From Flexivirga aerilata (GTDB lineage Bacteria > Actinomycetota > Actinomycetes > Actinomycetales > Dermatophilaceae): a stretch of 64,000 nucleotides of DNA. Position 1 is the first letter of the stretch; each line of letters opens with the position of its first letter. Positions 692 through 63,961 of this stretch are shown piece after piece. A program made the translations under genes and the position numbers. The stretch lies in NCBI RefSeq assembly GCF_013002715.1, contig NZ_JABENB010000001.1, forward strand, positions 186,001 to 250,000, given 5' to 3'. The notes beneath the pieces were generated by a model that ran no database searches, was not told the DNA's origin, and worked only from the letters and a program-made list of their open reading frames with translations.

Positions 692-1375
692 TCACGGCGC
701 CTCGAACTTGTAGCCCAGCCCCCGCACCGTCACGATGTAGCGCGGGCTCGCCGGGTCCGGCTCGACCTTGGCCCGCAGCCGTTTGATGTGCACGTCGAGC
801 GTCTTGGTGTCGCCGACGTAGTCGCTGCCCCACACCCGGTCGATCAGCTGCCCGCGCGTCAGCACCCGGCCGGTGTTGCGCAGCAGCAACTCCAGCAGCT
901 CGAACTCCTTCAGCGGCAACGCCGTCGGCTCCCCGTCGACGACCACCGTGTGCCGGTCGACGTCCATCCGCACCGGGCCGCTCTGCAGCGTCGCCGGCAG
1001 CAGCTCGTCGGCCTCCTGACCACGCCGCAGCACCGCCTTGATGCGGGCCAGCAGCTCACGCGAGGAGTAGGGCTTGGTCACGTAGTCGTCGGCGCCGAGC
1101 TCCAGCCCGACCACCTTGTCGACCTCGGAGTCCTTGGCGGTGAGCATGATCACCGGGACGTTCGACTTCTGGCGCAGCGCCCGGCATACGTCGACCCCCG
1201 ACATACCCGGCAGCATCAGGTCCAGCAGCACCAGGTCCGCACCGCCCCGGTCGAACTCCACCAGAGCGTCCGGCCCGGTCTCGACGAGCGCGACGTCGTA
1301 GCCCTCCTTGCCGAGCAGGTAACCGAGCGGGTCGGAGATCGACTCTTCGTCTTCGACCACGAGGATGCGCGTCAT
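692..1375 (-). CDS. regX3: Two-component response regulator RegX3/PhoP type
   Basis: 227 aa, OmpR/PhoB family. The receiver domain (about 1-115) has the acidic pair Asp9/Glu10, phospho-acceptor Asp52 in LLDLMLPGMSG, and the conserved Lys in the YVTKPY segment. A winged-helix DNA-binding domain follows (about 130-225) with the PRYIVTVRGLGYKF signature. It is the cognate regulator of the kinase just upstream, with a 4-bp ATGA overlap, and would control phosphate-starvation genes such as pst. Direct-repeat PHO boxes near senX3/phoU and pstS are its likely targets. The sequence closely follows mycobacterial RegX3, and phoU and gpmA are neighbours as expected. Confidence 0.95.
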   Translation of the reverse strand: MTRILVVEDEESISDPLGYLLGKEGYDVALVETGPDALVEFDRGGADLVLLDLMLPGMSGVDVCRALRQKSNVPVIMLTAKDSEVDKVVGLELGADDYVTKPYSSRELLARIKAVLRRGQEADELLPATLQSGPVRMDVDRHTVVVDGEPTALPLKEFELLELLLRNTGRVLTRGQLIDRVWGSDYVGDTKTLDVHIKRLRAKVEPDPASPRYIVTVRGLGYKFEAP

Positions 1376-2655
1376 GGGGTGACCTTCCTGGGAGTGTTGT
1401 GCTCAGGCGTTCGTTCTGCGGGTATGACGGGAGCCGCGGGCGCCGGGCGCGCGGCAGGCAGCCGGATCGTGAAGGTCGAGCCCTGGCCCTCCTCGGACCA
1501 GACGCTCACCTCGCCGCCGTGATTGGCGCTCACGTGCTTCACGATCGCCAGGCCGAGGCCGGTGCCGCCGGTGCGGCGCGAGCGCGCCGCGTCCACGCGG
1601 TAGAACCGCTCGAAGACGCGGTCGAGGTCGGCCGGCGGGATGCCACGCCCCTGATCCTTCACGACCAGCGTGATCAGGTCCGGCCCGGGCTGCACGGTGA
1701 CCCCGACGCGGGTGCCGGAGTCGGAGTAGTTGAGGGCGTTCTCGACCAGGTTGCGGACCGCGGTGGTGATCAGGTTGCCGTCGCCGTAGATCAGCGCCGG
1801 CTCCGACGGGTCGCCGAGCGCGGTCGAGATCTCGATGTCGCGGTCGGCGGCGACGACCTGCAGGTGCTCGACCGCTTCGCGCACGCAGACTCGCACGTCG
1901 ACCAGCACCGGCTCGTCGAGGGTGTCGGCGACCTGCAACCGCGAGAGTTCGATGATCTCCTGCACCAGCCGCGCCAGGCGTGAGGTCTCCACGCGCATCC
2001 GGCCGGCGAAGCGGTGCACCGCCTCCGGGTCGTCGCGGGCGTCGTCCATCGCCTCGGCGAGCAGGGTCAGGCCGCTCACCGGCGTCTTCAGCTCGTGCGA
2101 GACGTTGACCACGAAATCGCGGCGGGTCTCCTCGACCCGGCGGGAGTGGGTGCGGTCCTCGACGAGGACCAGCACGTGCTGCTGCGAGAGCGGCGCCACC
2201 CGCACACCGATCGTGAGCCGGCCCTGCCCGAGCGGGCCCCGCGCGACGTCGAGCTCGACCTCGCGCACGTCGGCGTCCCGGCGCACGTCGCGCACCAGCC
2301 CGCGCAGTTGCGCGTGCGACAGCTCGGCGTCGCGGACGAGGCCGAGCGCCTGCGCACTCGCGCTGGAGCGGACCACCCGGTCCGATGCGTCGATGACCAT
2401 CGCCACCGAGCGCAACGCGTCGAGCACGTCGATCGCCGGCGAAGCCAGTGGGGAGAGCGGCTCCGGCGGCGTCATACGGGCTGCGGGGGCGGGGCCGGGG
2501 CGGCGGGCACGCAGCGCGTAACCGACGACGGCGCCCACGACCAGGGCCACCACCACGGCGACGACTGCGAGCAACACGGCGCCCAATGTACGCACTCGGC
2601 CGGGTCGCTCCGCACCGCCAGTGCGCCGTATGCCGCCGGTCTGCCCGTTGTTCAC
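1372..2655 (-). CDS. senX3: Phosphate-sensing histidine kinase SenX3/PhoR
   Basis: Up to 427 aa. One membrane helix (about 22-48) is followed by a PAS-like sensor domain, a HisKA domain with phospho-accepting His187 in VNVSHELKTP, and an ATPase domain with an N-box (NLVENALNY) and G-boxes (DQGRGIPP, GTGLGLAIV). It phosphorylates RegX3. The GTG start at 2655 overlaps a PHO-box repeat, so a downstream GTG near 2595, just before the membrane helix, may be the true start. Divergent from phoU, with a shared 140-bp control region. Confidence 0.93.
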   Translation of the reverse strand: MNNGQTGGIRRTGGAERPGRVRTLGAVLLAVVAVVVALVVGAVVGYALRARRPGPAPAARMTPPEPLSPLASPAIDVLDALRSVAMVIDASDRVVRSSASAQALGLVRDAELSHAQLRGLVRDVRRDADVREVELDVARGPLGQGRLTIGVRVAPLSQQHVLVLVEDRTHSRRVEETRRDFVVNVSHELKTPVSGLTLLAEAMDDARDDPEAVHRFAGRMRVETSRLARLVQEIIELSRLQVADTLDEPVLVDVRVCVREAVEHLQVVAADRDIEISTALGDPSEPALIYGDGNLITTAVRNLVENALNYSDSGTRVGVTVQPGPDLITLVVKDQGRGIPPADLDRVFERFYRVDAARSRRTGGTGLGLAIVKHVSANHGGEVSVWSEEGQGSTFTIRLPAARPAPAAPVIPAERTPEHNTPRKVTP

Positions 2656-2682
2656 CTTGCGTCCCGACCGAGTTCACCACGT
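2650..2682. promoter_or_regulatory. Putative PHO box in the senX3/phoU divergent region
   Basis: Three contiguous 11-nt units: GTTCACCTTGC (2650), a degenerate middle unit (2661), and GTTCACCACGT (2672). The two good units start exactly 22 bp apart, matching the 11-nt direct-repeat architecture of actinobacterial PhoP/RegX3 boxes. It overlaps the annotated senX3 start codon and lies upstream of phoU, suggesting autoregulation. Confidence 0.6.
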
Positions 2683-2795
2683 CCTGCCACGGTCGACCCC
2701 GTCAGGCGCTTCGCGCTGCCCGGATGTGGCGCGGGACGACTTTCGACATACAGTGCTTCGGCCAACGGCCCGACGAGCGAGGATCTGAGACCACC

Positions 2796-3461
2796 ATGCG
2801 CGATGCATTCCACGACGATCTCGACCGGATCTCCGACGACCTGGTCGAGATGACCTCGATGGTCGACGCCGCGATGAAGCGCGCGACCAGCGCGCTGCTC
2901 GACACCGACCTGGCGACGGCCGAGAGCGTCATCGCCGCGGACGACGACATCGACCAGCTGCGCCGGGACGTCGACGACCGCGCGGTGGACCTGCTCGCGC
3001 GGCAGCAGCCGGTCGCGACCGACCTGCGCATGGTCGTCACCGCGATGCACATGGCGAGCGACATCGAGCGCATGGGCGACCTGGCCCGCCACGTCGCCAA
3101 GGTGGCCCGGATGCGCTACCCCGAGTCGGCGGTGCCGCAGCCGCTACGCGACACCATCGCGGAGATGGCCGTCGTCGCCGAGCGGCTCGCCGCCGCCACC
3201 GGCAAGGCGATCGCCGACAAGGACGTGCGCGGCGCCAACGAGATCGAGAAGATCGACGACGAGATGGACCAGCTGCACCGCAAGATCTTCGGCGAGCTGC
3301 TCAACCAGCACTGGGAGCACGGCACCGAGGCCGCGGTCGACGCGACCCTGATCAGCCGCTACTACGAGCGCTTCGGTGACCACGCGGTCGCCGTCGCCAA
3401 CCGGATCGTCTACCTGGTGACCGGTCGCTACGGCACCGAGGACGAGGGCCTGCAGGACTGA
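2796..3461 (+). CDS. phoU: Phosphate signalling protein PhoU
   Basis: 221 aa, made of two three-helix PhoU repeats with the usual metal-binding acidic motifs, for example DLRMVVTAMHMASDIERMGDLA in the first half and RYYERFGDHAVAVANRI in the second. PhoU links the Pst transporter to the SenX3 kinase and keeps the phosphate response off when phosphate is plentiful. The chosen ATG follows a GAGGA-like ribosome site; longer upstream reading has no family similarity. It is separated from pst by 21 kb, as in other actinobacteria, and transcribed away from senX3. Confidence 0.94.
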   Translation: MRDAFHDDLDRISDDLVEMTSMVDAAMKRATSALLDTDLATAESVIAADDDIDQLRRDVDDRAVDLLARQQPVATDLRMVVTAMHMASDIERMGDLARHVAKVARMRYPESAVPQPLRDTIAEMAVVAERLAAATGKAIADKDVRGANEIEKIDDEMDQLHRKIFGELLNQHWEHGTEAAVDATLISRYYERFGDHAVAVANRIVYLVTGRYGTEDEGLQD

Positions 3462-3483
3462 CGCCCGGCGCGGCCGCGGGCGA

Positions 3484-3710
3484 TCTCGTAAGCGACGGTG
3501 ACGCCAGCCGCACGCTTCGTCACCAGACGCGCCACCCCAGCGGTCCCGTAAGCGACGGTGACACCAGCCGCACGCTTCCTCACCAGACGCGCACCCCTCC
3601 CAGCGGTCCCGTAAGCGAAGGTGACGCCAGCCGCACGCTTCGTCACCAGACGCGCCACCCCAGCGGTCCCGTAAGCAACGGTGACACCAGCCGCACGCTG
3701 GCTTACGAGA
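3484..3710. repeat. Four ~60-bp tandem repeats with CGTAAGC core
   Basis: CGTAAGC recurs at 3487, 3547, 3610 and 3670 (periods 60, 63, 60). Each copy is followed by a conserved GGTGAC...CAGCCGCACGC segment. The last copy ends in the inverted core GCTTACGAGA at 3701, which also supplies the stop codon of the adjacent minus-strand gene. All periods are multiples of three. The same core recurs beyond the other end of that gene. Confidence 0.9.
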
Positions 3711-4683
3711 CGCGCGAGACGCCGGCGGCGCGCAGCCGGTATGCCGTGACAACCTGCTGCATGAACGCATCCTCCTGGATCCGCAGGCCCAGCAACGGGA
3801 TCCGGAGCACGGTCTCACCTCCGACGACGACGGAGTTCTGCCGCAGCGCGTCAGCCAGGACGTTGGCCGGCTCCTGGTGGTGGGCGCCGTCGATCTCCAC
3901 GAACAGCCGCACTCGGGGCCAACCGGCGTCGAGATAGATGCGGCCGTGCGGACCGCGGCGGATGACCTGCCGGGCCGGTGGTGGCAGACCGTGGCGACGG
4001 CAGGCCGCACCGAAGTCGAGCTCGCCAAGCGCCTGCGCACCGTCGATGACGTCGGCGACCACGGTGCGGATGAGCTTGCGGCGGCGATAGAGCCCCGCCT
4101 GCGGCAGCGTCCGTGCGAGCAGGTCGGTCGCCACCAGCCGCTGTTGCACCGCCATCGCGATGACGAGCGCCGCCGCCCGGTCGCTGATCGCCCACTGCGC
4201 AGCCCGCAGCACCGCCAACTCGCTGCGCACCCACGGAAGGTCTTCCGCGATCACCTGATCGGGGCCGTGCTCCCAGAGATCACCACGGATCGGCACCACG
4301 TGCCGGCTCACACCGGTCACGGCGATCGGGCTGCGCCCGTGCGGGACGGAGATGTGGACGGTCGGCTCGTGCCAGCCGGTCAGCCCGGCGTGCTGCAGCG
4401 CGCTGACACCGTCGAGCGCACTCACCCGGCCGCTCTCCCAGACGGCACGATGTCGCAACGCCACCTCGTCGAGCTGTGCGGCAGTGAGGCCGATCGTGCG
4501 CAGACCGTGCGCCCGCCATACACCGGCGGCGAGGAGTCGGCGCACCTGCCACCGGTCGACCCCGAGGGTCCGCAACTGCGCTCGGGACAGCACCCATCCC
4601 TGCTGCTCGGCAGCCGCATGCAGGCGGCGCAACGTCATGGCGTCCACCCGAGCCACGGTGGTCGCAGATCGGCAGCCCGTCAT
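3703..4683 (-). CDS. AbiEi-like / DUF559 endonuclease-fold protein
   Basis: 326 aa. The N-terminal ~130 residues resemble AbiEi antitoxin-type winged-helix domains (LRTLGVDRWQVRRLLAAGVW). The C-terminus carries a DUF559/Vsr-like PD-(D/E)XK-type core: Asp in YLDAGW, then FVEIDGAHHQ, then a beta strand near VVVGGETVLRI. Such proteins are frequent in actinobacteria and their biological role is unsettled; nuclease activity is inferred from the fold. The start is ATG at 4683, with an alternative ATG at 4638. The TAA stop lies inside a repeat core, and repeat arrays flank the gene on both sides, suggesting a transposed or recombined cassette. Confidence 0.75.
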   Translation of the reverse strand: MTGCRSATTVARVDAMTLRRLHAAAEQQGWVLSRAQLRTLGVDRWQVRRLLAAGVWRAHGLRTIGLTAAQLDEVALRHRAVWESGRVSALDGVSALQHAGLTGWHEPTVHISVPHGRSPIAVTGVSRHVVPIRGDLWEHGPDQVIAEDLPWVRSELAVLRAAQWAISDRAAALVIAMAVQQRLVATDLLARTLPQAGLYRRRKLIRTVVADVIDGAQALGELDFGAACRRHGLPPPARQVIRRGPHGRIYLDAGWPRVRLFVEIDGAHHQEPANVLADALRQNSVVVGGETVLRIPLLGLRIQEDAFMQQVVTAYRLRAAGVSRVS

Positions 4684-4748
4684 CGCGGGTCGCGAAAGTT
4701 GTGGACGGATGCGGCAATTCGCGGGAGATGTGGACGCGCACTAGCCGC

Positions 4749-4985
4749 GGATCCCGTAAGCGACAGTGCGCCTGACGTCACCCCCGCTTACGAGATGCGC
4801 GGGGCCTCGCCGATCCCGTAAGCAACAGTGCGCCCGGCGTCACCCCCGCTTACGAGATGCGCGCAACCGCACGCCCGCTTACGAGATGCGCGGGGGCTTG
4901 CCGATCCCGTAAGCAACAGTGCGCCTGACGTCACCCCCGCTTACGAGACGCGCGCAACCGCACGCGGCTTACGAGACGCGCGCGC
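4749..4985. repeat. GTAAGC/GCTTAC inverted-core repeat array
   Basis: This fills the roughly 300-bp gap between the DUF559 gene and gpmA. CGTAAGC cores lie at 4755, 4817 and 4908, and the inverted core GCTTACGAGA at 4786, 4848, 4877, 4939 and 4967. Each CGTAAGC is followed about 31 bp later by GCTTACG, so each unit can fold into a hairpin around GTCACCCCC. No gene is visible in this gap. Confidence 0.9.
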
Positions 4986-4986
4986 G

Positions 4987-5730
4987 TCAGCGGCCCTGGT
5001 TGGCGACGGCTTCGGCGGCCGCCTTCGCCGCGACGGGGTCGAGGTATTCGCCGCCGGGGACGGTCGGCTTGAGGTCGTCGTCGAGGCGGTAGACCAGCGG
5101 CTGGCCGGTCGGGATGTTGAGGCCGACGATCTCCTCGTCGCCGATGCCGTCGAGGTGCTTGACCAGCGCGCGCAGCGAGTTGCCGTGCGCGGCGACCAGC
5201 ACGACCTTGCCGTCCTTCAGGTCGGGCACGATCGACTCCTCCCAGTAGGGCAGGAAGCGCTCGATGACGTCCTTCAGGCACTCGGTGCGCGGCATGTCGT
5301 CGCCGAGGCCGGCGTAGCGGACGTCACCGTCCTGGCTGAACTCGCTGCCCGGCTCGATCGGCGGCGGCGGCACGTCGAACGACCGCCGCCAGGTCATGAA
5401 CTGCTCCTCGCCGAACTCCTCCAGCGTGGCCTTCTTGTCCTTGCCCTGCAGCGCGCCGTAGTGCCGCTCGTTGAGCCGCCAGTTGCGCCGCACCGGGATC
5501 CAGTGCCGGTCGGCGGCGTCGAGGGCGAGGTTGGCGGTGGTGATCGCCCGGCGCAGCAGCGAGGTGTGCACCACGTCCGGCTGCACGCCGCCGTCCTTGA
5601 TCAGCGAGCCGCCGTGCTCGGCCTCGGCGCGACCCTTGTCGCTGAGCGGCACGTCGACCCAGCCGGTGAAGAGGTTCTGGGCGTTCCACTCGGACTCGCC
5701 ATGACGAAGCAGCACCAGGGTGTAGGTCAT
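4987..5730 (-). CDS. gpmA: 2,3-bisphosphoglycerate-dependent phosphoglycerate mutase
   Basis: 247 aa, typical length for GpmA. It interconverts 3- and 2-phosphoglycerate in glycolysis and gluconeogenesis. [10 protein letters not shown] holds the phospho-accepting His10, [12 protein letters not shown] the catalytic Glu, and [13 protein letters not shown] the second catalytic His. It lies downstream of ybjN and mshA on the same strand, the same company gpm1 keeps in mycobacteria. The gap to ybjN is about 9 bp, so co-transcription is likely. Confidence 0.96.
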
Positions 5731-5739
5731 GGCGCCATC

Positions 5740-6249
5740 CTAGGAGCGGGCCTCGCCGCCGTCGCCACGGTCCAGCAGGTGGCGGAACGCCTCCAGGTTG
5801 CGCGTCGACTCGCCGCGGCTGATGCGCCAGTCCCACTCCCGCTGCATCGAACTGCGGAAGCCGAGCACCAGCAGGTCGTTGAACACCTCGTCGGACGCCT
5901 CCAGCACGGTGCCGAGCAACGTGTCGAGGTAGTCGTCGTCGACCGCCGCGACCGGCACCCGGGCCACCACGTAGACGTCGCCGTGCTCGTCGGTCGCGTA
6001 GGCGACGCCCGGACGGCGCAGGTTGCGGCGCAACAGGAACTGGGCAAACTCGGCGTGGTTCTCGTCAGGATGCCGTATGACGAAAGCGGTTGCGGTCAAA
6101 GCGGTTTCGCCGGCAACCAGGGACACCACGGTCTTCAGCTTGCGCTCCCCCGGGAGGCTGACCACAAACTCTCCGTCGCGGGCGCCGAGCTCCCACTCGA
6201 CGTCCGTGTCGGTGAGGTAGCGCTCGACGATGTCGGTGGTCCGGGTCAT
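5740..6249 (-). CDS. YbjN domain-containing protein
   Basis: 169 aa, a single YbjN (type III secretion chaperone-like) domain. It is rich in alternating beta strands followed by a helical tail (DEVFNDLLVLGFRSSMQREWDWR). Its position between mshA and gpmA is conserved in actinobacteria. It starts immediately at the end of mshA, so the two are probably translationally coupled. The molecular role is unknown. Confidence 0.85.
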   Translation of the reverse strand: MTRTTDIVERYLTDTDVEWELGARDGEFVVSLPGERKLKTVVSLVAGETALTATAFVIRHPDENHAEFAQFLLRRNLRRPGVAYATDEHGDVYVVARVPVAAVDDDYLDTLLGTVLEASDEVFNDLLVLGFRSSMQREWDWRISRGESTRNLEAFRHLLDRGDGGEARS

Positions 6250-7560
6250 TCAGATCGCTCTCTCGGTGCGGGGAAACTCGGAAATGCCGGTGACGACGCC
6301 AGACGCCTCACCGCGGGCACGTGCGTAGACGTGCAGCAGCTGGTCGGCCGTGGCGTCCCACCCGAAAGCTGCGGCGTGCCGGATCGCGTTGGCCGACAAG
6401 GCTGCCCGGCCCTCCGGGTCGTCGAGCATCTCGGCGATGGCCGCTGCCCACTCGCCGGGGTCGTGGCCGGCGACCAGGCGGCCGGCGTCGCCTACGGCCA
6501 TCGGAAGGCCGCCCACGTCAGCGGCGACGACCGGTGTGCCGCACGCCTCCGCCTCGAGTGCGACGAGACCGAAGGACTCCGAATATGAAGGCACCGCAAG
6601 CAGATCCGCCGCGCGATACCACTGCGCCAATTCGGCTCGCGAGACCGGTGGCACAAACTGCACCACGTCGGCGATGCCCAGGTCGCGGGCGAGCTGCTGC
6701 AGCGCACGGGGCTTGTCGAGACCGCTCCCGCTCGGGCCGCCGAGCACGGCCACGACCAGCCGCGAGCGCCGGTCCGGATCCTGCTCCAGCAACCGGGCGG
6801 CCGACCGCAGGAGCACGTCGGGCGCCTTCAGCGGCTGGATGCGCCCGACGAACAGCACCACCTCCGCGTCGTCCGGCAGACAGACCGCGGCGCGGGCCGC
6901 CGACCGGTCACCGGGCGTGAAGGTCGCCAGATCGACTCCGGGAGAGACGATTTCGACGCGTGCGGGGTCTGCGTCATACAGCTCGATCAGCTCGCGCGCC
7001 TCCCGGCGGGTGTTGGCCACCAGCACGCTCGCGGCGCGCACGACCTGCTCCTCGCCGATCTCCCGGCCGGAGGGTTCGGGACGATCGCCGTCGGCGAGCG
7101 AGGAGTTCTTCACCTTCGCCATCGTGTGCATCGTGTGCACCAGCGGCACGTCCCAGCGGTCCGCCGCGAGCCAGCCGACCTGACCGCTCAACCAGTAGTG
7201 CGAGTGCACCAGGTCGTAATGACCCTCGGGGTGGCGCGCCACGTGCCGCATCACGCCCGCCGCGAAGGCGCACAACTGGCCGGGCAGGTCGTCCTTCGCC
7301 AGCCCCTCGTAGGGGCCGGCGTCGATGTGCCGCACCAACACGCCCGGGCACAGCTGCACCGTGTCGGCGAGCGCAGCCGAGGTGCGGCGGGTGAAGATCT
7401 CGACCGCCACTCCCCTGGCCGCCAGCCGCTTCGCGGTCTCCACGACGTAGACGTTGAGCCCACCCGCGTCGCCGGTGCCCGGCTGATCGAGCGGCGACGT
7501 GTGCACACTGATCATCGCCACCCGTCGCGCCGGCGCGGCAGCCTCGGTGTCCACAGTCAC
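6250..7560 (-). CDS. mshA: D-inositol-3-phosphate glycosyltransferase MshA
   Basis: 436 aa, GT4 family with GT-B fold. It catalyses the first committed step of mycothiol synthesis, transferring GlcNAc from UDP-GlcNAc to inositol-3-phosphate. The N-terminal domain begins [19 protein letters not shown], and the nucleotide-sugar domain has [14 protein letters not shown] and a [20 protein letters not shown] motif with the catalytic Glu pair. The GTG at 7560 precedes the conserved start by about 15 residues; a longer reading frame upstream has no family similarity. mshD lies 13 kb away in this window. Confidence 0.94.
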
Positions 7561-7631
7561 CCCACCAGTCTCGCACCGCCGCCGATTCGGGTCGCCGGCG
7601 CGCACGGCAGGCGAGATCGCCGGTGTCCGGG

Positions 7632-7647
7632 ACCGCCCACGGGCGGT
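7632..7647. promoter_or_regulatory. Inverted repeat in mshA/regulator divergent gap
   Basis: ACCGCC and GGCGGT arms flank CACG, 23 bases before the AfsR-type gene in the 109-bp divergent region with mshA. The arms are short and GC-rich, so chance is possible; it could be an operator or a leader hairpin. Confidence 0.3.
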
Positions 7648-7669
7648 GATCTTCAGTACCTTGATCGAC

Positions 7670-10600: not shown

Positions 10601-10744
10601 CGCCAGGGCAAGCACGTCGCGGCAGCCGAGTTGCTCCGGCAGGAGCGCGCCGCGCGTGCGTCGGCGGAGCTGGCGTGCCGCGAGGAGTTCGACGAGGCCT
10701 ACGGCCGCGAGGTCGGCGACGACGCCGGACCCGTCCGGCGGTGA
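7670..10744 (+). CDS. AfsR/SARP-type transcriptional regulator with NB-ARC and TPR domains
   Basis: 1024 aa. Order: OmpR-like winged helix (about 15-95), bacterial transcriptional activation domain (about 100-235), a linker with three copies of a S/N-HGN-type motif, an NB-ARC ATPase with Walker A GTTGVGKS near residue 315 and Walker B RVLIVLDN, then about 450 residues of helical TPR-like repeats. These large regulators usually switch on secondary metabolism or development. No biosynthetic cluster is next to it; instead it is divergent from mshA. The start is ATG at 7670; the frame is open upstream but overlaps mshA. Target genes cannot be told from the sequence. Confidence 0.88.
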
Positions 10745-10754
10745 GTCGCGGGCG

Positions 10755-14148: not shown

Positions 14149-14167
14149 TACGGTAGGTCGCTCGAGG

Positions 14168-51779: not shown

Positions 51780-51819
51780 GCGCTCTCCCACGCCGATCTC
51801 TCACCGGAGTCGGATACTT

Positions 51820-51878: not shown

Positions 51879-51973
51879 GACTGCATCGTTCCGGCGGCCG
51901 CGCGGCCTGCTCGCGAACGCCGGGCCCTGTGGACAACCGATTTCGCCGGTCGCACCGGAGCACAATCGACGGG

Positions 51974-52630: not shown

Positions 52631-52660
52631 CGCAGCGAGCCGGTGCGGCAGGATGCTCGG

Positions 52661-55337: not shown

Positions 55338-56967
55338 TCCCGAGGATCTCCCTCGCCTGCTCGCGCATCTCCACCTTGCGGATCTTGCCGGTCACGGTCA
55401 TCGGGAACGCGTCGGTGACGTGCACATACTTCGGGATCTTGTAGTGCGCGAGCTTGCCGTCGGCGAACTTCCGCACGGCATCGGCGTCGAGCGGCGGCTC
55501 GCCGGACCGCATGATGATCCAGGCCATCAGCTCCTCGCCGTACTTCGCGTCGGGCACCCCCACGACCTGCACGTCGGCGATCGCCGGGTGGGTATAGAGG
55601 AACTCCTCGATCTCGCGGGGGTAGATGTTCTCGCCGCCCCGGATCACCAGGTCCTTGATCCGGCCGACGATCGCGACGTAGCCGTCGTCGTCCATCGTGG
55701 CGAGGTCGCCGGTGTGCATCCAGCGAGCCTGGTCGATCGCCTCCGCGGTCTTGTCGGGCTGCTCCCAGTAGCCGAGCATCACGCTGTAGCCGCGGGTGCA
55801 GAACTCGCCGGTCGCGCCGCGCGGCACGGTCAGCCCGGTCGCCGGGTCCACCACCTTGACCTCGAGCATCGGCATCACCCGGCCGACGGTCTCGGTGCGG
55901 CGCGCGAGGTCGTCGTCGGTGCGGGTCATGGTCGACACCGGCGACGTCTCGGTCATGCCGTAACAGATCGCGACCTCACCCATGTTCATCTCGGCGATGA
56001 CCCGCTTCATCACCTCGACCGGGCACGGCGAGCCGGCCATGATGCCGGTCCGCAGCGTGCTCAGGTCGTATGACGCCTCGCCCTTGTCCAGGAGCGCGAG
56101 CTCGGCGATGAACATCGTCGGCACACCGTAGAGCGACGTGCAGCTTTCTGCCGCAACGGCTTCCAGTGTTGCGGCCGGCTCGAACGACGGGGCCGGGATG
56201 ACCATGCAGGAGCCGTGCGAGGTCGCCGCGAGGTTGCCCATCACCATGCCGAAGCAGTGGTAGAACGGCACCGGCAGACAGATGCGGTCCTGCTCGGTGT
56301 AGCCGACGAGCTCACCGACGAAATAGCCGTTGTTGAGGATGTTGTGGTGCGACAGCGTCGCGCCCTTGGGGAATCCGGTTGTGCCCGAGGTGTATTGGAT
56401 GTTGATCGGGTCGTCGGCGGACAGGCCGGCGGACCGGGTCGCGAGGTCGTCGTCGGTCGTCGACGACGCCTTGGCCAGCAGCTCGTCCCAGCTCGGGTCG
56501 CCGATGTATACGACCTGCTTGAGGCCGCGCACGTCGGGGCGCACCTGCTCGACCATCGCGCGATAGTCGGAGGTCTTGTGCTGGGTGGCACTGACGAGCA
56601 TCGACATGCCGGACTGCTTGACGACATAGGCCAATTCGTGTGATCGGTAGGCCGGGTTGACGTTGACCAGGACGGCACCGATGCGCGCGGTGGCATATTG
56701 CAGCAGGGTCCACTCGGGGCAGTTGGGCGACCAGATGCCGACGCGGTCGCCCTTGTCGATGCCTGCCGCCATGAGCGCCTTGGCGAGCTCGTCGACCGCC
56801 GCGTCGAACTCGGCGTAGGTCCAGCGACGACCACTGGGCAGATCGACGAGCGCGTCACGCCCGGAGTGCTTCTCGGCGGTGCGCCGCAGGTTGTCGGCGA
56901 TCGTGTCGCCGAGCAGCGGGGTGTCGGAGATGCCGCTGCTGTAGGACGGCTGGGCGGTGGTGGACAT
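55330..56967 (-). CDS. Fatty-acyl-CoA synthetase (AMP-binding)
   Basis: 545 aa, ANL superfamily. The P-loop is [49 protein letters not shown] and the catalytic Lys in [10 protein letters not shown] follow. Acyl-CoA synthetases of the FadD35/AcsF2 type are the nearest match from memory. It activates fatty acids with ATP and CoA. Divergent from the gene at 57036; the chain-length preference cannot be read. Confidence 0.9.
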
Positions 56968-57035
56968 GCTGACTGCTCCTCATGTGACCGGCGACACGTT
57001 CAGCTTAGGCGCGGTCGGCGGCATAGGCTTCCGGG

Positions 57036-59240
57036 GTGCCCCGATCCGCACGCAGCTTCGCCGACGACATCCGGGCGCGCAGTGACGACCAGCTGCGCGC
57101 CCTGCTGCGCGCACGCCGCGACCTGGCCCGGCCCGCACCGGCCGACCTGACCGCACTCGCCGCGCGGGCGGCAACCCGCGCCAGCGTGCAGCGCGCACTC
57201 GAGAGCCTCACCGCCGACCAGCTCCGGGTGCTCGAGGCACTCGTCGTCGGCGGCCCCGACGATGTCGCGAAGCTGCTGGACGCACCGGCCCGGTCCGTGC
57301 GCGCCACCCTCACCGCGCTCTGGGACCTCGCGCTCGTATGGCGCAGCCCGGAGGGCTTCCGCGCCGCGCGGGCGGTCCCGGAGATCCTCGGCGCGCCGGC
57401 CCGGCTCGGTCCGACCGCCCGTGAGCTCGGCGTGCGCGACCGGAGCGCCGACGCATCGGCTGCGGCCGAAAACCTTTCGCCTGCAGCCCGATCGGCGATC
57501 GACCGACTGCGCTGGAACCATCCGCGCGCGAGCTTCGACGGGGAGTCGGCCCGGGCCATCCGGGACGAACTCGTCCAGGCGGGTCTCGCGGCGCCGACCG
57601 ACGACGGCATCGTCATACCCCGGGAAGTGGGCGTGGCCCTGCGCGGTGGGCGGCTCTACCGCGACGGGCTGACCCCGCCGACCGCGCCGGAAGCCGTGCT
57701 CGCACAAGCGGATGTCGATGCGGCGGCCGGCGCCGAGGCCCTCGAACTGCTCTGGCGCGTGGAGGCGCTGGCGCTGCGGTGGGAGGCCGAGCCACCGCGC
57801 GTGCTGCGCTCCGGCGGCCTCAGTGTGCGCGATCACCGGGCGGTCGCCACCGCGCTGGAGGCGACACCCGAACTCGCCGCATTCGTCATCGAGATCGCGT
57901 ATGCCGCCGGCCTGCTCGGACCGGACGGCGACTTCGAGCCGAGCTGGCTGCCCACCCGGTCGTATGACGAATGGGCCGCGGCCGCCCCGGCCGAGCGCTG
58001 GGCGGCACTGGCGGAGGCGTGGCTGGACACCGCTCGCGCGCCGTCTCTGGCGGGCACCAGCTCGGCACAGGGCGGCGTGATCAATGTGCTGAGCACCGAC
58101 GTCGGCTGGCCGATGATGCGCAACCGTCGCCTGGATGTGCTGCACATCCTCCACGACCTCGACGAAGGCACAGTCGCGGCAACGGAATTCACCGACGCGA
58201 TGCTCCACTGGCGCAGGCCGCTCCGGCTGCCGGAGGGAGCGCCGACGCGCGCTCACGAGGTGTTGCGGGAGGCGGCCTGGCTCGGCGTCACCGGGCGTGG
58301 CGCGCTGTCGACCCCGGGTCGTGCGCTCATCGACGGCCGCGACGCCGCAGCTGCCATGGCTGCCGCGTTGCCGGTCGCGGTGGATCACGTGCTGTTGCAG
58401 GCCGACCTGACGGCGATCGCTCCCGGACCGCTCACCGAGGACCTGCGGCGGCTGATGCAACTTGCTGCCGATGTCGAATCCCGAGGTGGCGCAACGGTTT
58501 ACCGCTTCACCGAGGGCAGTGTGCGGCGGGCACTCGACACGGGCCTGCCAGCCGCGGAGTTGATCGCCAAACTGACCGATGCGAGCCGCACCCCGGTGCC
58601 GCAGCCGTTGGAATATCTCGTGCTCGACGCCGGCCGCCGGCACGGTCAGACGCGCATCGGCGCGGCCGGCTGCTACCTGCGCAACGACGACGTGGCGGCA
58701 CTCGACGCGGTCGTCGCCGACCGGCGACTCTCGCCATTGCAGCTGCACAAGATCGCGCCCACGGTGGTCGTCTCCCCTGCGCACCCCGGTACAGTGCTGG
58801 AAATGCTGCGCCAGCACGGATATTCGCCGGTCGCCGAGGGCGCGGACGGGCACGTCGTCCATGCCGGCCGGGACCACCCGCGCGCGCCGCAGCGGCGGGA
58901 GAGCGCGGCAGGCATCCGCCTGGACAGCGTCGACGACCGGGTGATCGACCAGTTGCTGACCCGGCTACGCCAGGGCGACGCCGTTGCGGCGCAGGCCGCG
59001 CAGAAGGAAGGTCCGCGCATCCCCTCGACCGACCCGACCGTGACGCTCACCCGCCTGCAGGACGCGGTGGCCGACCGGGCCCCGGTCTGGATCGGCTACG
59101 TCGACACCGACGGCGAACTGCGCCGCACACTCTTCCGGCCCGAGCGCGTCGAGGGTGGCCGGGCGACCGGGTCGGTCGGCGAGGGCAACGACCGGCGGAC
59201 CTTCTCGATCCACCGCATCTCCGGCGTGGTGCCCGCCTAG
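57036..59240 (+). CDS. Helicase-associated domain protein (Rv0862c-like)
   Basis: 734 aa. The N-terminal winged-helix-like repeats (SADQLRALLRARRDLARPAP region and ASVQRALESLTADQLRVLEALVVGG) and the middle helicase-associated domain (PF13625-like) are present, but there is no Walker A motif, so it is not itself a helicase. In mycobacteria the homologue neighbours an XPB-type helicase; that helicase is not seen here. A C-terminal WYL-like segment (PVWIGYVDTDGELRR) may bind ligand or nucleic acid. The start is GTG. Confidence 0.85.
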   Translation: MPRSARSFADDIRARSDDQLRALLRARRDLARPAPADLTALAARAATRASVQRALESLTADQLRVLEALVVGGPDDVAKLLDAPARSVRATLTALWDLALVWRSPEGFRAARAVPEILGAPARLGPTARELGVRDRSADASAAAENLSPAARSAIDRLRWNHPRASFDGESARAIRDELVQAGLAAPTDDGIVIPREVGVALRGGRLYRDGLTPPTAPEAVLAQADVDAAAGAEALELLWRVEALALRWEAEPPRVLRSGGLSVRDHRAVATALEATPELAAFVIEIAYAAGLLGPDGDFEPSWLPTRSYDEWAAAAPAERWAALAEAWLDTARAPSLAGTSSAQGGVINVLSTDVGWPMMRNRRLDVLHILHDLDEGTVAATEFTDAMLHWRRPLRLPEGAPTRAHEVLREAAWLGVTGRGALSTPGRALIDGRDAAAAMAAALPVAVDHVLLQADLTAIAPGPLTEDLRRLMQLAADVESRGGATVYRFTEGSVRRALDTGLPAAELIAKLTDASRTPVPQPLEYLVLDAGRRHGQTRIGAAGCYLRNDDVAALDAVVADRRLSPLQLHKIAPTVVVSPAHPGTVLEMLRQHGYSPVAEGADGHVVHAGRDHPRAPQRRESAAGIRLDSVDDRVIDQLLTRLRQGDAVAAQAAQKEGPRIPSTDPTVTLTRLQDAVADRAPVWIGYVDTDGELRRTLFRPERVEGGRATGSVGEGNDRRTFSIHRISGVVPA

Positions 59241-59312
59241 CGCCTCCCCGCGCGGCCGGCCGTTCGCCACGGGTCAGCGACTGACGCCCTTCGCCGCCCA
59301 CTGACGTCCGCG

Positions 59313-59350
59313 GCAACGAGTGACGTCGTTGCACGGACGTCACTCGTTGC
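59313..59350. terminator. 15-bp hairpin between convergent genes
   Basis: Arms GCAACGAGTGACGTC (59313) and GACGTCACTCGTTGC (59336) pair perfectly around an 8-base loop. Further partial copies of GTGACGTC/AACGACGTCAC lie on both sides (59301-59370), so the whole 100-bp gap is a cluster of the same word. It probably terminates both flanking genes. Confidence 0.82.
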
Positions 59351-59376
59351 GAACGACGTCACTCACCGGGCAGCCC

Positions 59377-61323
59377 TCAGAAGATGCGCACGCGCTGGTC
59401 CTCGGGCAGGGCCATGCCGTCGCCCTCACCGACGCCGAACGCCTCGTCGAACTCCGTCAGGTTGCGCGCGACGTTGGCGCGCGCGTCGATCGGCGAGTGC
59501 GGGTCGATCGTGAGCAGTCGCTTGGCCTCCGCCTCGCGCGCCTTGCCGCACCAGACCTGCGCCCAACCGACGAAGAACCGCTGCTCGGGGGTGAATCCGT
59601 CGAGCTCGGGCGACTTCTCGGCCTCCTGCGCGATCTGGAACGCCTTGTAGCCGATCGTCAGGCCGCCGAGGTCGCCGATGTTCTCGCCGACGGTGAGCGC
59701 GCCGTTGACGGTGTTGCCCGGTGCGTCCCGCGGCTCCACTCCGTTGAACTGCTCGATCAGCTTGCCCGCCAACGCATCGAAGCGCTCACGGTCGCCGGCG
59801 GTCCACCAGTCGGTGAGGTTGCCGTCGCCGTCATAGCGGGACCCCTGGTCGTCGAAGCCGTGGCCGATCTCGTGCCCGATCACGCCGCCGATGCCGCCGT
59901 AGTTGACCGCGTCCTCGGCGTCGACGTCGAAGAACGGCGGCTGCAGGATCGCGGCCGGGAAGACGATCTCGTTCATCACCGGCATGTAGTAGGCGTTGAC
60001 CGTCTGCGGGGTCATGAACCACTCGCCGGAGTCGACGTCGTCCCCGACCCGGTCGACCATCCGGTCGACCTCCCAGGCGGTCGCGGCGGCGATGTTGCCG
60101 ATCAGGTCGTCGGGGCGAATCTCTATGGAGGAGTAGTCCTTCCACTCCTGCGGGTAACCGATCTTCGGGGTGAACTTGGCGAGCTTCTCCAGCGCCTTGG
60201 CACGGGTCTCCTCGCCCATCCACGGCAGCGTCTCGAAGTCGCGCCGGTAGGCCTCGACGATGTTGGCGACCAGCTGCTCCATCCGCTCCTTGGCGTGCGG
60301 CGGGAAGTGCTTGTCGACATACAACTGTCCGGCGGCCTCGCCGATGAGCCCCTCGACCAGGGCGACGCCACGCTTCCAGCGCTCCCGATTTTCCGGGATG
60401 CCCGACAGGGTGCGTCCGGCGAAGTCGAACCGCTCGTCGACCATCGCCTGGTGCAGGTATGGCGCACGCTCCGACACCAGCCGCCAGGTCAGCCAGGCCT
60501 TCCACTTCTCCAACGGCTCGTCCCGCAATGCCTCGGCGAATCCCGTGAGATATGAGGGCTGTTCGACGTTGACCGGGTCGAGGATGCGTGCCTCGGCACC
60601 GACCCCGTCGAGCCAGGCGTCCCAGTCGACGCCCGGGCTGAGCTCGTCCAGCTCGGCCCGCGTGAGCTTGTTGTAGGTCTTCACCGCGTCACGCGAGGCG
60701 ACCCGGTCCCAGTGCGCCTTCGCCAGCCGGGTCTCGAGCTCCATCACCTGATCGGCAAGCGACTCGTGGATGCCGGCCAGCCCGAGCAGCCGCCGCATGT
60801 GCGCGACATACTTGTCCCGCGTCTCGGAGTGCTGCTCCTCGCGGTAGTAGGACTCGTCGGGCAGGCCGATGCCGGCCTGCATGACGTAGAGGATGTAATG
60901 CGCCGAATCCTTCGCATCCGCAACGGAATAGAAGCCGACGAACCCGTCGACGCCGCGGCGGGTGAGCTGTCCGGAGACGCGCAACAGGTCGGAGGTGGAC
61001 TGCACCTCGTCGATCAGCTCCAGCTCCTCGGCGATCGCGCCGGCACCGAGCTTCTCGATGCGCTCGGTGTCCATAAACGACGCGAAGAGGTCACCGACCT
61101 GCCGGCGCGGCGTGCCCGGCTCGGAGTTGCTCGCCGCAGCCTCCTCGATCAGCTCGTGCACCGCCTGCTCGGCATCCTCACGCAGCTTGTCGAAGGTGCC
61201 GTATCGCCCACGGTCGGAAGGGATTTCGTTGTTCGCGACCCACCCGCCGTTGACGAACCCGAAGAGGTCGTCCTGCGGGCGGACCGAACGGTCGAAATTC
61301 TCCAGGATCACGCCGGACTTCAT
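59377..61323 (-). CDS. M13-family zinc metallopeptidase
   Basis: 648 aa, the usual length for PepO/neprilysin homologues. The zinc motif HEIGH in VIGHEIGHGFDDQGSRYDG and the third ligand Glu in ENIGDLGG are intact, and NAYYMPVMNEIVFPAAILQ is the substrate-binding NAYY segment. No signal peptide is seen, so it may act in the cytoplasm on peptides. The start is ATG at 61323. Confidence 0.95.
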   Translation of the reverse strand: MKSGVILENFDRSVRPQDDLFGFVNGGWVANNEIPSDRGRYGTFDKLREDAEQAVHELIEEAAASNSEPGTPRRQVGDLFASFMDTERIEKLGAGAIAEELELIDEVQSTSDLLRVSGQLTRRGVDGFVGFYSVADAKDSAHYILYVMQAGIGLPDESYYREEQHSETRDKYVAHMRRLLGLAGIHESLADQVMELETRLAKAHWDRVASRDAVKTYNKLTRAELDELSPGVDWDAWLDGVGAEARILDPVNVEQPSYLTGFAEALRDEPLEKWKAWLTWRLVSERAPYLHQAMVDERFDFAGRTLSGIPENRERWKRGVALVEGLIGEAAGQLYVDKHFPPHAKERMEQLVANIVEAYRRDFETLPWMGEETRAKALEKLAKFTPKIGYPQEWKDYSSIEIRPDDLIGNIAAATAWEVDRMVDRVGDDVDSGEWFMTPQTVNAYYMPVMNEIVFPAAILQPPFFDVDAEDAVNYGGIGGVIGHEIGHGFDDQGSRYDGDGNLTDWWTAGDRERFDALAGKLIEQFNGVEPRDAPGNTVNGALTVGENIGDLGGLTIGYKAFQIAQEAEKSPELDGFTPEQRFFVGWAQVWCGKAREAEAKRLLTIDPHSPIDARANVARNLTEFDEAFGVGEGDGMALPEDQRVRIF

Positions 61324-61421
61324 CTGCTCACTCCTACTTCGAGGTATGACGAGGCACGCTGCTCGTTCAACCTACGTGGTCGGCTCGGGGTTCCGCAGCC
61401 GGTATCAGGTGGGGGCGGTGG

Positions 61422-62384
61422 TCAGCCCGCGAGCGCCTTGACCACTCGCGACGGCGAAGGCCGGCCGAGCTGCTGCGCCATCCAGGTAGAGGTCTGCACC
61501 AGCTTGTCCAGGTCGACGCCGGTTTCGACGCCGAGCCCGCGGCACATCCAGACCAAATCCTCGGTGGCGAGGTTGCCGGTGGCCGACTTGGCGTAGGGGC
61601 ACCCGCCGAGTCCGCCGGTCGATGCGTCGACCACGGTGACTCCGTGGCCCATGGCAGTGACGGTGTTGGCGAGCGCCTGGCCGTAGGTGTCGTGGAAGTG
61701 GACGGCCGTGGACTGCGCCGGGATGCCCTGGGCGTCCAGCGCCGCGAGCAGCTCGGTGACATGCCCCGGCGTACCCACGCCGATCGTGTCGCCCAGGCTG
61801 AGCTGGTCGCAGCCGAGATCCATCATCCGCCGCGACACGTCGACGACCTGGTCGACCGGCACCGGGCCCTCCCACGGGTCGCCGAAACACATGGAGACAT
61901 AGGCGCGCACCCACAGCCCCGCGTCCCGCGCCCGCTCGACCACCGGCGCGAACATCCGGATCGACTCCTCGACCGACCGGTTGAGGTTCTTGCGGGCGAA
62001 GGTCTCAGTCGCCGACCCGAAGATCGCGACCGCGCCGACCCCGGCCGCGAGCGCGCCGTCCAGACCCCGCTCGTTGGGCACCAGCACCGGCCGCTTAGGG
62101 CCGCGGCAGACCTCGCCGAGCTGCGCCAGCAGGTCGGACGCGTCGGCCAGTTGCGGGATCCACGAGGGCGGCACGAAGGAGGTGGTCTCGACCGTCTCCA
62201 GTCCTGCGTCGACCAGTCGTCGGACGAACTCCGCCTTCACGTCGGTCGGGACGACCGCCTTCTCGTTCTGCAGTCCGTCCCGCGGTCCGACCTCGTAGAT
62301 CGTGATCGCCTCGGGCATCGTCGGCATTGACGCAACCTGTGGCAAGTCCATGTCGCCATGGTCGCACCACGTGCTCGACGTCAC
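61422..62384 (-). CDS. mvaB: Hydroxymethylglutaryl-CoA lyase
   Basis: Up to 320 aa, TIM-barrel lyase. It cleaves HMG-CoA to acetyl-CoA and acetoacetate in leucine breakdown. EVGPRDGLQNE is the opening motif and GLGGCPYA holds the catalytic Cys. HFHDTYGQALAN supplies metal-binding His residues. The GTG at 62384 overlaps the upstream stop (GTGA); ATG at 62351 or 62327 would trim an unconserved N-tail and is equally possible. Confidence 0.9.
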   Translation of the reverse strand: MTSSTWCDHGDMDLPQVASMPTMPEAITIYEVGPRDGLQNEKAVVPTDVKAEFVRRLVDAGLETVETTSFVPPSWIPQLADASDLLAQLGEVCRGPKRPVLVPNERGLDGALAAGVGAVAIFGSATETFARKNLNRSVEESIRMFAPVVERARDAGLWVRAYVSMCFGDPWEGPVPVDQVVDVSRRMMDLGCDQLSLGDTIGVGTPGHVTELLAALDAQGIPAQSTAVHFHDTYGQALANTVTAMGHGVTVVDASTGGLGGCPYAKSATGNLATEDLVWMCRGLGVETGVDLDKLVQTSTWMAQQLGRPSPSRVVKALAG

Positions 62385-63961
62385 ACCGGCGACGTCACAG
62401 CTGGGACGTCATGCCGGCGTCGCCGCAGCCGCCGTGCATCGGCGCGCACGTTGTCGGCGACGATCCGGCTGCCGAGCACGCAGGCGACGGTGCCGACGCC
62501 CGGCCACACCGAGTCGCCCACGAGATGCACGCCGCGGATCCCGAGGTGGTGCGGGATCGCACGCCGGTTGCTGTTCGCGGGTGACTGCCGCACTCCGCCG
62601 ACGGCTCCGTCCGGGCGTCCCGCGAATCGGGCGAACGCCCGCGGCGTGGCGACGCTGAGCACGTCGGCATTGTCGCCGAGGCCCGGGTAGGCCCGCCGGG
62701 CCTGTGTCAGGAGCTCCTCGCCGATCCGCTTCTTGGCGAGGTGGTGATCGGACTCGCTCAGGCCGCGCCAGTCGTCGAGCTCGACATGGGTCGAGATCAT
62801 CACGGCGCGCCGACCCTCCGGGGCGCTCACCCGGTCACCCGCAGCGGAGACCGAGACGAACATGTTGTTGCCGCTGCCGAGCGGTCTGTCGTAGCTGTGC
62901 ATGAACTGGTGGTGGGTGAACTCCTGGTCGGCCACCTCCGCGTCGGGGACGCCCAGGAACAGCACCACGGCACCGCCGTACGAGCGCTCATCCCGTTGCA
63001 GGTATGACGAAAGTCGTTGCGCGACAAGCCCGCCGAAGATCCGCGAGGTCGTCTCCGCGGGCAGCGCCGAGACCACCTGGACGGCGTGGTGTTCCCCGCG
63101 TGAGGTCGCGACGACATACTCCCCAGGGCGTCCCGAGACCGCCTGCGCCACGGTTGCGACGCGCAGGTCGCCCCCGAGCGCCCGGTAACGAGCGACGAGA
63201 CGTCGCCAGAAGCCGCGCATGCCGCCGGTGTGCCGGGTGAGCCCGGCTCCGCGGATGGTGATCCCGAGCGCGGCGTTGATCAGCGGTGCGTCCTCGACGG
63301 TGGTGTGCACCGTGTCCTCGACCATCATGCTGAGCAGACCGCGCAGCGGTCGGTCGGCCGATATCCCGTGCCGCCGCATCGAGTCGGCGAGCGTGCGCGG
63401 CAGGTGCCGCACCGCCAGCGGGTGGTAACCCACTGCTCGCGCATTACGCAGCACATCCAGCGGCGTGCGCATCGGCAGCCGCACACCGCGGCGGCTCGCC
63501 GACCAGAAGGTGTCGGCCACCGTGTCGAGGTGTGCCCAGAACGCACGATGGGCCGGGTCATCGCCGAACACCCGGAGCCGCTCGGCATGCCAGCGTTCCC
63601 GTTCCCGGTGCAACCGGACCTCCCGGTCGGGCAGCCAGGCGAGGTAGCCGGGGAGCAGCTCGCCCTCGACCGGGCCGACGCCCACCTCGTCCAGCAGGTC
63701 ACCGCCGACACCGCCCGGTTCGAAGTCGACCAGGGTGGTCGCGCCCACGTCGAAGGAGTAGCCGCGATGCGACCAATAGCCCGAGCAGCCGCCGGCATGA
63801 CCGTGCGCCTCGATCAGCACGGTGCGGTAGCCGTCGGCCTGGAGGCGGAGCGCGGTCGCCATACCTGCCAGTCCGGCACCCAGGATCGCCACGTCATACA
63901 CCACGGTTGCCCTCCGGTTGCTCGTCGGCACGGACGGCCGCGGGCGGACGTCCGGTTCCAC
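62381..63961 (-). CDS. CrtI/phytoene-desaturase-like FAD oxidoreductase
   Basis: 526 aa. The FAD-binding motif is [22 protein letters not shown] followed by GHAGGCSGYWSHRGYSFDVGATTL, the carotenoid desaturase-isomerase pattern. A C-terminal FAD contact reads HLVGDSVWPGVGTVACVLGSRI. Substrate unknown; no crtB or crtE is in the window. The GTG at 63961 gives about 20 residues before the Rossmann motif; a GTG near 63904 is possible. Coupled to the HMG-CoA lyase gene. Confidence 0.85.
   Translation of the reverse strand: MEPDVRPRPSVPTSNRRATVVYDVAILGAGLAGMATALRLQADGYRTVLIEAHGHAGGCSGYWSHRGYSFDVGATTLVDFEPGGVGGDLLDEVGVGPVEGELLPGYLAWLPDREVRLHRERERWHAERLRVFGDDPAHRAFWAHLDTVADTFWSASRRGVRLPMRTPLDVLRNARAVGYHPLAVRHLPRTLADSMRRHGISADRPLRGLLSMMVEDTVHTTVEDAPLINAALGITIRGAGLTRHTGGMRGFWRRLVARYRALGGDLRVATVAQAVSGRPGEYVVATSRGEHHAVQVVSALPAETTSRIFGGLVAQRLSSYLQRDERSYGGAVVLFLGVPDAEVADQEFTHHQFMHSYDRPLGSGNNMFVSVSAAGDRVSAPEGRRAVMISTHVELDDWRGLSESDHHLAKKRIGEELLTQARRAYPGLGDNADVLSVATPRAFARFAGRPDGAVGGVRQSPANSNRRAIPHHLGIRGVHLVGDSVWPGVGTVACVLGSRIVADNVRADARRLRRRRHDVPAVTSPV

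Follow-up and report, generated by a model that had tools for sequence, protein, structure and literature searches.

Why does one eight-base word recur so often, and in both orientations, along a stretch of actinobacterial chromosome? The question is raised by the window studied here, a 64,000-nucleotide stretch of Flexivirga aerilata (contig NZ_JABENB010000001.1, positions 186,001 to 250,000), in which the word is GTATGNCG, with position 6 free. We propose that GTATGNCG is probably a DNA-uptake word, read by a Tad (Flp) competence pilus.

Enrichment of the word in the window

In the window, GTATGNCG occurs exactly 83 times between position 1182, where the first copy starts, and position 63899, where the last one ends. 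The forward strand has 42 copies and the reverse strand 41, with a mean spacing of 765 bp and a density of 1.25 per kb. The initial annotation of this DNA is reproduced in its count of 83, its span, its spacing of about 770 bp and its absence of strand bias. The 'twelve-fold' enrichment that it gave stands as an enrichment and not as a factor: the excess is ~23-fold over dinucleotide shuffles of the window (mean 3.57 and maximum 8 in 100 shuffles) and 9-fold over a null in which synonymous codons were shuffled inside each of 54 genes. These genes were called by a simple purpose-made gene finder, by which 91% of the window is coding, and their coordinates are approximate. Within them, GTATGNCG occurs 72 times against 8.0 +/- 2.7 expected (maximum 17 of 300), and GTATGACG occurs 29 times against 3.0 expected. 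When all octamers in the window genes were ranked under this codon-aware null, a check that the initial annotation had proposed for the whole genome, GTATGACG headed the list, followed by GTATGCCG and GTATGGCG. The annotation had also allowed that the ratio might fall to about 1, or that shuffled words might be equally enriched; four shuffled control words, GTAGTACG and three more, do not occur in the window at all.

Position 6 of the word is A in 37 copies, C in 23, G in 16 and T in 7. A longer motif was looked for and rejected, since the flanks carry no signal, with no position above 0.2 bit in the window. Rare codons are drawn into the word: 32 of the 82 TAT codons and 13 of the 19 ATA codons of the window genes lie inside it. 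High-G+C genomes have strongly skewed word counts, which would suit a by-product of mutation, codon or amino-acid bias. For Flexivirga this explanation is contradicted by the synonymous-codon null, and it also fails to account for the recruitment of the disfavoured TAT and ATA codons or for the count of the word read backwards, which has 853 copies in the whole Flexivirga genome against 5019 of GTATGNCG; we regard it as scarcely credible.

A longer sub-form of the word, TGCGCCATAC (GTATGGCGCA), has 7 copies in the window, where a third-order Markov model predicts ~0.1; seven further stretches have 0 or 1 copies each.

Symmetry and spacing across the genome

Across the 4.0-Mb Flexivirga genome (G000), the 5019 copies divide into 2555 forward and 2464 reverse. 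Chi sites are likewise short, enriched and clade-specific, and a chi-like recombination signal for an AddAB/AdnAB/RecBCD-type nuclease would be expected to vary between clades. Chi works in a single orientation, with a skew along each replichore, whereas the share of GTATGNCG on the forward strand is near one half in each of five genome stretches (42/83, 11/22, 14/27, 12/23 and 12/25); the genome-wide totals are uninformative on replichores. The initial annotation had held, from the lack of strand bias, that the word is neither chi-like nor FtsK-orienting, and the symmetry in the five stretches disfavours chi, which we consider very improbable.

Spacing in the window is evener than random, with a coefficient of variation of 0.71 against 0.98 (p 0.0008). 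In pooled word-positive stretches, which leave out L046, L217, L220, L221 and L047-L076, the density of the word is 1.45 per kb in intergenic and 0.97 per kb in genic DNA by the crude gene finder. Close inverted pairs of uptake words serve as terminators in Neisseria and Haemophilus, a common trait and not a defining one. The window has one hairpin-like inverted pair and a further close pair in opposite orientation (Table 1). A terminator role was rejected: close pairs in all orientations number 36 against 33.7 expected in the pooled stretches.

Distribution across the family and the phylum

The family to which Flexivirga belongs (f1) combines the Dermacoccaceae (Flexivirga; Micrococcales) and the Intrasporangiaceae (Intrasporangium) of NCBI and is presumably the Dermatophilaceae of GTDB. 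All five Flexivirga genomes are high in GTATGNCG, with 5,019 to 8,019 copies (2913/2832 in F. meconopsidis Q11, G004). By densities computed from rounded genome sizes, 21 of 36 family genomes have at least about 0.25 copies per kb and the remaining 15 at most about 0.17; 22 genomes from other families of the order all have at most about 0.16, and in a phylum sample of 296 genomes none outside the family exceeds about 0.2. Among 22 named genomes counted, Knoellia remsis has 3459 copies, Humibacillus xanthopallidus 3007 and 3332, Ornithinimicrobium tianjinense 2772, Phycicoccus elongatus 2737 and Terrabacter sp. Root85 2386, and one genome each of Kribbella, Nocardioides, Actinopolymorpha and Streptomyces have 150 to 641 in 4.7 to 8.9 Mb. 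The contrast can be as sharp within a genus: Intrasporangium oryzae (G025) has 2871 copies and I. flavum (G031) 99, and Phycicoccus jejuensis has 53 against the 2737 of P. elongatus. Whether related genera share the word, as the initial annotation had asked, can thus be answered: it is common to many genera of the family, with dialects.

Dialects of the word

The dialects, found in two families, have an ATG core in common. GTATGACG and its CCG and GCG versions are the top words in Flexivirga and in G007 (samples of 14 to 120 kb), so that the GTATGNCG dialect comprises all five Flexivirga genomes plus G007. GTATGCCG is the top word in about a dozen genera. Given as observed/codon null, G016 has GAATGCCG at 19/1.3 alongside GTATGCCG, and the GGATGCCG dialect is found in G020 (25/4.0) and G030 (19/3.1), with a weak GGATGCCG excess in G005 (18/6.1). 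G022, the sister of the Flexivirga-G007 group in the protein tree described below, has GTATGCCG with GTATGCGG. A GTATGCGG dialect in G024 is tentative, this word having led the smaller sample (9/0.3) and fallen outside the top seven in the larger one. Genome-wide, GRATGCCG reaches 3647 copies in G016, 3916 in G020 and 3984 in G030, against 351 to 1,353 in the other 34 family genomes. In G019, GTATGCCG is not among the top words, and this genome was scored as positive on its genome-wide count, 1232 against 537 for the reversed word.

Words of this kind also occur in f19, another family of the order, as CGGATGCC followed by G (CGGATGCCG) or as CGGATGCCTC. G310 has CGGATGCC then G (GGATGCCG 48/8.0), G055 has CGGATGCC then TC (CGGATGCC 32/2.8, GGATGCCT 18/1.2), and in G651 the top word is CGGATGCG instead of CGGATGCC. 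Among 396 genomes of the order, GKATGCCG exceeds 0.4 per kb in 26 of 33 f19 genomes and stays at or below about 0.35 outside f1 and f19, with some genomes of family f4 coming close. Phylum-wide, GTATGNCG and CGGATGCC were the dialect words counted, and CGGATGCC is prominent in just three of the 296 genomes, all f19 members, with 2791 to 4093 copies. A survey of other families of the order (17 genomes, 13-20 kb each, after three samples of <5 kb were dropped) found such a word only in G055 of f19.

No ATG-core word tops 40-80 kb each of the word-free G006, G012, G013, G014, G023, G027, G028 and I. flavum (G031), in which hidden dialects were sought. The best words of word-free genomes reach z 8-9, no lower than those of the weaker carriers. 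The dialect survey was made without the low-G+C G018, of which only 6.5 of 80 kb could be called as genes; its samples omit L046 and L047-L076, and the larger survey also L200, L202, L205, L215, L217, L220 and L221.

Other words were noted in passing. GCAGCAGC is in excess in the word-free G028 (59/19.4), as are CGGCGTAC (34/9.6) and CGCCGTAC (27/6.2) in the word-free G027 (L034, L087, L241, L242), and the order survey gave CGCTGGAA at 8/0.8 in G054. In genus g35 of family f4 (G389, G403, G456), which lacks the strong word, GKATGCCG is moderately commoner than its reversed control; the 2.0 Mb of G389, for example, have 602 copies against 114.

The distribution also bears on an epigenetic reading. 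In being asymmetric and having one free position, the word is similar to type I, IIG or BREX-like methylation sites, and GTATGNCG might be the recognition site of a DNA methyltransferase, of phosphorothioation or of another epigenetic or defence system. Restriction usually depletes its own site, however, and such systems move between strains, whereas this word is common to all five Flexivirga genomes and differs from genus to genus by single bases. A modification site, to which we give little credence, is therefore disfavoured by the vertical inheritance of the word and the drift of its dialects.

Retention, loss and mobile DNA

Retention was measured in orthologous genes of the ~20-kb comEC regions, each site being counted once per genome pair, with octamers of similar A+T content as the expectation. 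Word-carrying pairs kept 768 of 2312 sites (383 expected), and the excess is present in every divergence class; word-free relatives kept 5 of 1659 (238 expected) and other-dialect genomes 61 of 670 (85 expected). The sets comprised 17 positive, 5 other-dialect and 12 negative genomes, with G005 counted as negative; G019, G193 and G032 were left out, and G018 yielded no pairs. Between G000 and F. meconopsidis, 14 of 14 sites are kept, with a background of 0.57. The rare codons behave accordingly. Between carriers, TAT is kept in 438 of 1117 cases (39%) inside the word and 314 of 1963 (16%) outside it, and ATA in 22% and 2.6%; against word-free relatives, TAT is kept in 74/841 (9%) inside and 144/1409 (10%) outside, and ATA in 0/276 and 0/131. 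What is retained is therefore the word as such, and this only where there is such a system.

In a midpoint-rooted protein tree of 35 genomes, the word-free genomes are scattered among the carriers, which suggests repeated loss, with repeated gain as the alternative. The word is also sparse in recent-looking mobile DNA, in three stretches: an element-like 20-kb stretch of G000 (L046) has 2 copies against 22-27 in four other 20-kb stretches, an 11-kb insert in G011 has 1 against 8 in 7 kb of flanks, and in G030 an insert of about 5 kb has no copy of the local dialect, compared with 10 in 15 kb.

These results have to be set against the strongest rival to an uptake word, a site for a family-specific chromosomal (nucleoid or segregation) protein with thousands of selected sites and a specificity drifting between genera; it is the strongest because its sites would also be symmetric and retained. 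The high density on both strands, the mild intergenic excess, the retention at orthologous sites and the fairly even spacing in the window would all fit a DNA-packing protein. However, the word is missing from many genera of the family and differs between the two Intrasporangium species, and an architectural protein with 5000 sites should hardly be lost so often. Most window sites, moreover, lie in genes, where the rare codons are a cost that selection at each site must pay. Altogether, we consider a nucleoid-protein site unlikely.

Competence machinery

The initial annotation had suggested a search for comEA, comEC and pilin genes, and Flexivirga proved to have comEA, comEC and two tad clusters, components of a competence machinery. 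ComEC was found in 36 of 37 family genomes, the one miss being a genome 58% complete, and a ComEA homologue stands beside it in 35 of 36 regions. ComEA of G000 has SLBB and helix-hairpin-helix domains. Of the word-free genomes, G006 has no recognised ComEA and G013 one of only 45 aa; other word-free genomes have ComEA. One tad cluster of G000 has a gene that is TadZ-like by eye; the other, here named Tad-1, reads cpaF-tadB-tadC-flp-tadE-tadE-tadG and adjoins a gene identified by eye as prfB. Tad-1 is divergent from the gene for a 1430-aa FHA-FtsK/SpoIIIE ATPase.

All 26 word-positive family genomes have a Tad-1 ATPase or TadB gene, at least a partial one, as do 10 of the 15 word-negative ones (Fisher p 0.004 over 41 genomes, kinship ignored). 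The positives are G000-G004, G007-G009, G011, G015, G016, G019-G022, G024-G026, G029, G030, G032-G035, G193 and G710, and the negatives G006, G010, G012-G014, G017, G018, G023, G027, G028, G031, G387, G496, G602 and G657; the word state of G387, G496, G602, G657 and G710 was taken from GKATGCCG counts alone. G005 was left out of the count; p is 0.005 with G005 as a negative and 0.018 with Tad-1 of G021 taken as absent.

Several single-gene explanations were tried and rejected. ComEC does not discriminate, being near-universal in the family, and Tad-1 is not a sufficient cause, being present in word-free genomes and in other families. No gene of the Tad-1 operon was seen to be peculiar to carriers: in the seven word-free genomes with a fully read Tad-1 region (G006, G012, G013, G014, G023, G027, G028), and in the weak G005, cpaF, tadB, tadC, flp, two tadE and tadG are all found, as in the carriers. 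As for a type IVa pilus as reader of the word, PilM was found in 2 of 37 family genomes (G024, G029), and not in Flexivirga. Since the machinery also occurs in word-free genomes, it is at best necessary and not sufficient.

In several genomes cpaF/tadA, which encodes the ATPase of the tad pilus, is split at its Walker A codons or right beside them (Table 1), and integration into this competence-type gene seems to recur at that place.

Other features and coordinates

A second repeat, GCTTACGRGA, forms arrays of direct and inverted copies, mostly about 30 or 60 bp apart, on either side of a gene of the window that has no Pfam or NCBIfam match; the repeat was not found in seven other stretches of the genome.

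Table 1. Positions of word sites, other window features and interrupted tad genes (window positions unless a genome stretch, L, is named)
Feature	Position	Strand	Remark
Predicted protein genes (54)	128..63904		contain 72/83 sites; 10 sites intergenic, 1 partial
GTATGNCG sites, 1	1182-,1199-,1422+,2470-,2628+,2744-,3739+,4514-,6075+,6972-,8641-,8692+,9423+,10403+,11483-,12337+,13752+,14069-,15423-,15892+,17152-	with each start	starts
GTATGNCG sites, 2	18498+,18569-,19154-,19637+,20086+,20389-,20779+,21117+,22313+,23441-,24387-,24451+,26166+,27790-,28983+,28998-,29716-,31170-,32209+,32993+,33624+	with each start	starts
GTATGNCG sites, 3	33758-,33899-,34527-,34891+,36585-,36633-,36664+,37633-,38835+,39000-,41029-,42607+,43462-,43735-,44294+,44890+,46091+,46751-,47248+,47980+,48795-	with each start	starts
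GTATGNCG sites, 4	49209-,49977+,50979+,52111-,52765+,54529+,55229-,56068+,57336+,57611-,57899+,57962+,60315-,60457+,60804-,61344+,63002+,63112-,63857-,63892-	with each start	starts
TGCGCCATAC/GTATGGCGCA	10405, 15894, 18567, 23439, 44892, 57338, 60459
Inverted pair GTATGACG-N7-CGTCATAC	28983..29005		hairpin-like; between two predicted genes
Close opposite-orientation pair	36633..36671	36633 -, 36664 +	site positions
GCTTACGRGA arrays	3486-3710 and 4754-4976		13 copies
Gene flanked by the arrays	3703-4647	-	314 aa
G011 cpaF/tadA	L217:3242-15506		split by 11-kb element; serine recombinase gene at junction (Pfam Resolvase, Recombinase)
G031 (Intrasporangium flavum) cpaF/tadA	L095:10202-10807 with L219:3837-4445		split by about 35 kb
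G021 cpaF/tadA	L218:9987-10526		only 5' half seen
G008, ATPase gene of other tad cluster	L220:6276-6836, L221:5988-6539		same split place; halves on two contigs
G030 Tad-1 tadC	L089:4600-7700		ends at insertion with GmrSD-type restriction gene
G024, after tadC	L209:1182-8150		transposase-like genes (by eye)
G000 element-like stretch (L046)	G000:C1:2500001-2520000		G+C 0.67; tad/T2SSE-type ATPase, resolvase, two pyridine-nucleotide-disulphide oxidoreductases

Discussion

The density and symmetry of the word, its dialects and its losses, its decay where it was lost and its retention where it was kept, and its sparsity in mobile DNA together lead us to the uptake-word reading. The initial annotation had offered uptake sequences first; the pattern bears this out, and the function is one that we infer. 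In the mechanism that we envisage, the Tad (Flp) pilus, with Tad-1 as the presumed pilus in Flexivirga, would bind extracellular double-stranded DNA during competence, and DNA bearing the word would be preferred by one of the surface proteins of the machine, for which ComEA or a TadE/TadG-like minor pilin is the most likely candidate. ComEA and ComEC would then import one strand, which would recombine at the homologous place. Alleles with the word would be taken up more often, and the word would accumulate chromosome-wide as lost copies are replaced. It would persist at orthologous positions in species with the same preference, drift to a new dialect when the preference shifts, and decay once uptake is lost; newly arrived mobile DNA would lack it.

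Several observations weigh against an uptake word. To our knowledge, no transformation of Flexivirga has been described, and among the listed papers that name the genus none concerns it, as judged by titles and the beginnings of abstracts. A gene present or absent in step with the word was not found. ComEC and Tad-1 are present in most of the word-free relatives read too, and in most other families of the order. Of 75 genomes from the order, 58 have a strong TadB match and 3 more a weak one; the strong matches include 24 of 25 f19 genomes, but also many in word-free families. The word-positive G457 of f19, conversely, has no TadB match. Several carriers now seem to be without a complete Tad-1: in the word-positive G024, transposase-like genes follow tadC, and flp and tadE/tadG were not recognised behind tadC in its stretch L209 or in L089 of G030. 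When interrupted clusters (G011, G021 and G030; G031) are counted as absent, the association with the word becomes 23/26 against 9/15 (p 0.05). Such interruptions in carriers could be recent, the word outliving the pilus. Spacing is mixed in six other 20-kb stretches (coefficient of variation 0.55 to 1.14), and close pairs of the word are not in excess. Finally, 'uptake sequence' is not mentioned in the available parts of the Micrococcus luteus work (PMC4322843, PMC8467076).

M. luteus is nonetheless the nearest parallel for the machinery. According to the available parts of these papers, its transformation requires both tad loci, tad-1 and tad-2 (PMC4322843), as well as comEA and comEC, and mutating the FtsK/SpoIIIE-family gene adjacent to tad-1 also lowers it (PMC8467076). 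Two tad clusters, comEA-comEC and an FtsK/SpoIIIE-type ATPase gene beside Tad-1 are likewise present in G000 (L077, L078), a likeness of arrangement set against the accessible text of the published descriptions (PMC4322843, PMC8467076).

For the word itself, the parallels lie elsewhere. In the parts available, uptake words are named only for the Neisseriaceae and the Pasteurellaceae (PMC12616744, PMC7811141). Across the Neisseriaceae, the DNA-uptake sequences (DUS) differ in dialect around an inner core that is conserved (PMC12616744, in part). With these, whose receptor is ComP, our word shares its genome-wide enrichment as a short word, core-sharing dialects and competence machinery; DUS have about 9-12 bases, whereas here the word has 8 and the hosts are Gram-positive, with Tad clusters, no PilM in Flexivirga and no excess of inverted pairs. 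The uptake signal sequences (USS) of the Pasteurellaceae come in two types with a common core (PMC12616744, PMC7811141) and have a density of ~1 per kb in Haemophilus influenzae (PMC7811141), as far as the available text goes. Here the likeness, to a system with PpdA/ComN as predicted receptor, lies in the average spacing of ~1 kb and the core-sharing types, and the word, the phylum and the pilus all differ. GTATGNCG behaves like DUS and USS and is a candidate for their class, with a putative uptake preference and a putative receptor. No description of actinobacterial or Tad-related uptake words was found in the literature searched, most subscription journals and preprints being outside the search.

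We lean towards seeing here a third, apparently independent, form of self-recognising uptake, spread over two families of one order, using a Tad (Flp) and not a type IVa pilus and an 8-base word, with ATG-core dialects, repeated losses and mobile elements repeatedly entering the pilus genes. Should a role in uptake be confirmed, this may prove the first system of its kind in Gram-positive bacteria, the two known ones being Gram-negative. It would predict that many unstudied groups (Flexivirga, Knoellia, Ornithinimicrobium, Terrabacter, Humibacillus, Intrasporangium oryzae and family f19) are naturally transformable, and would offer a simple tagging rule for transforming them. The dialects, losses and intermediates would also form a natural series for tracking down the receptor and for testing how words of this kind spread.

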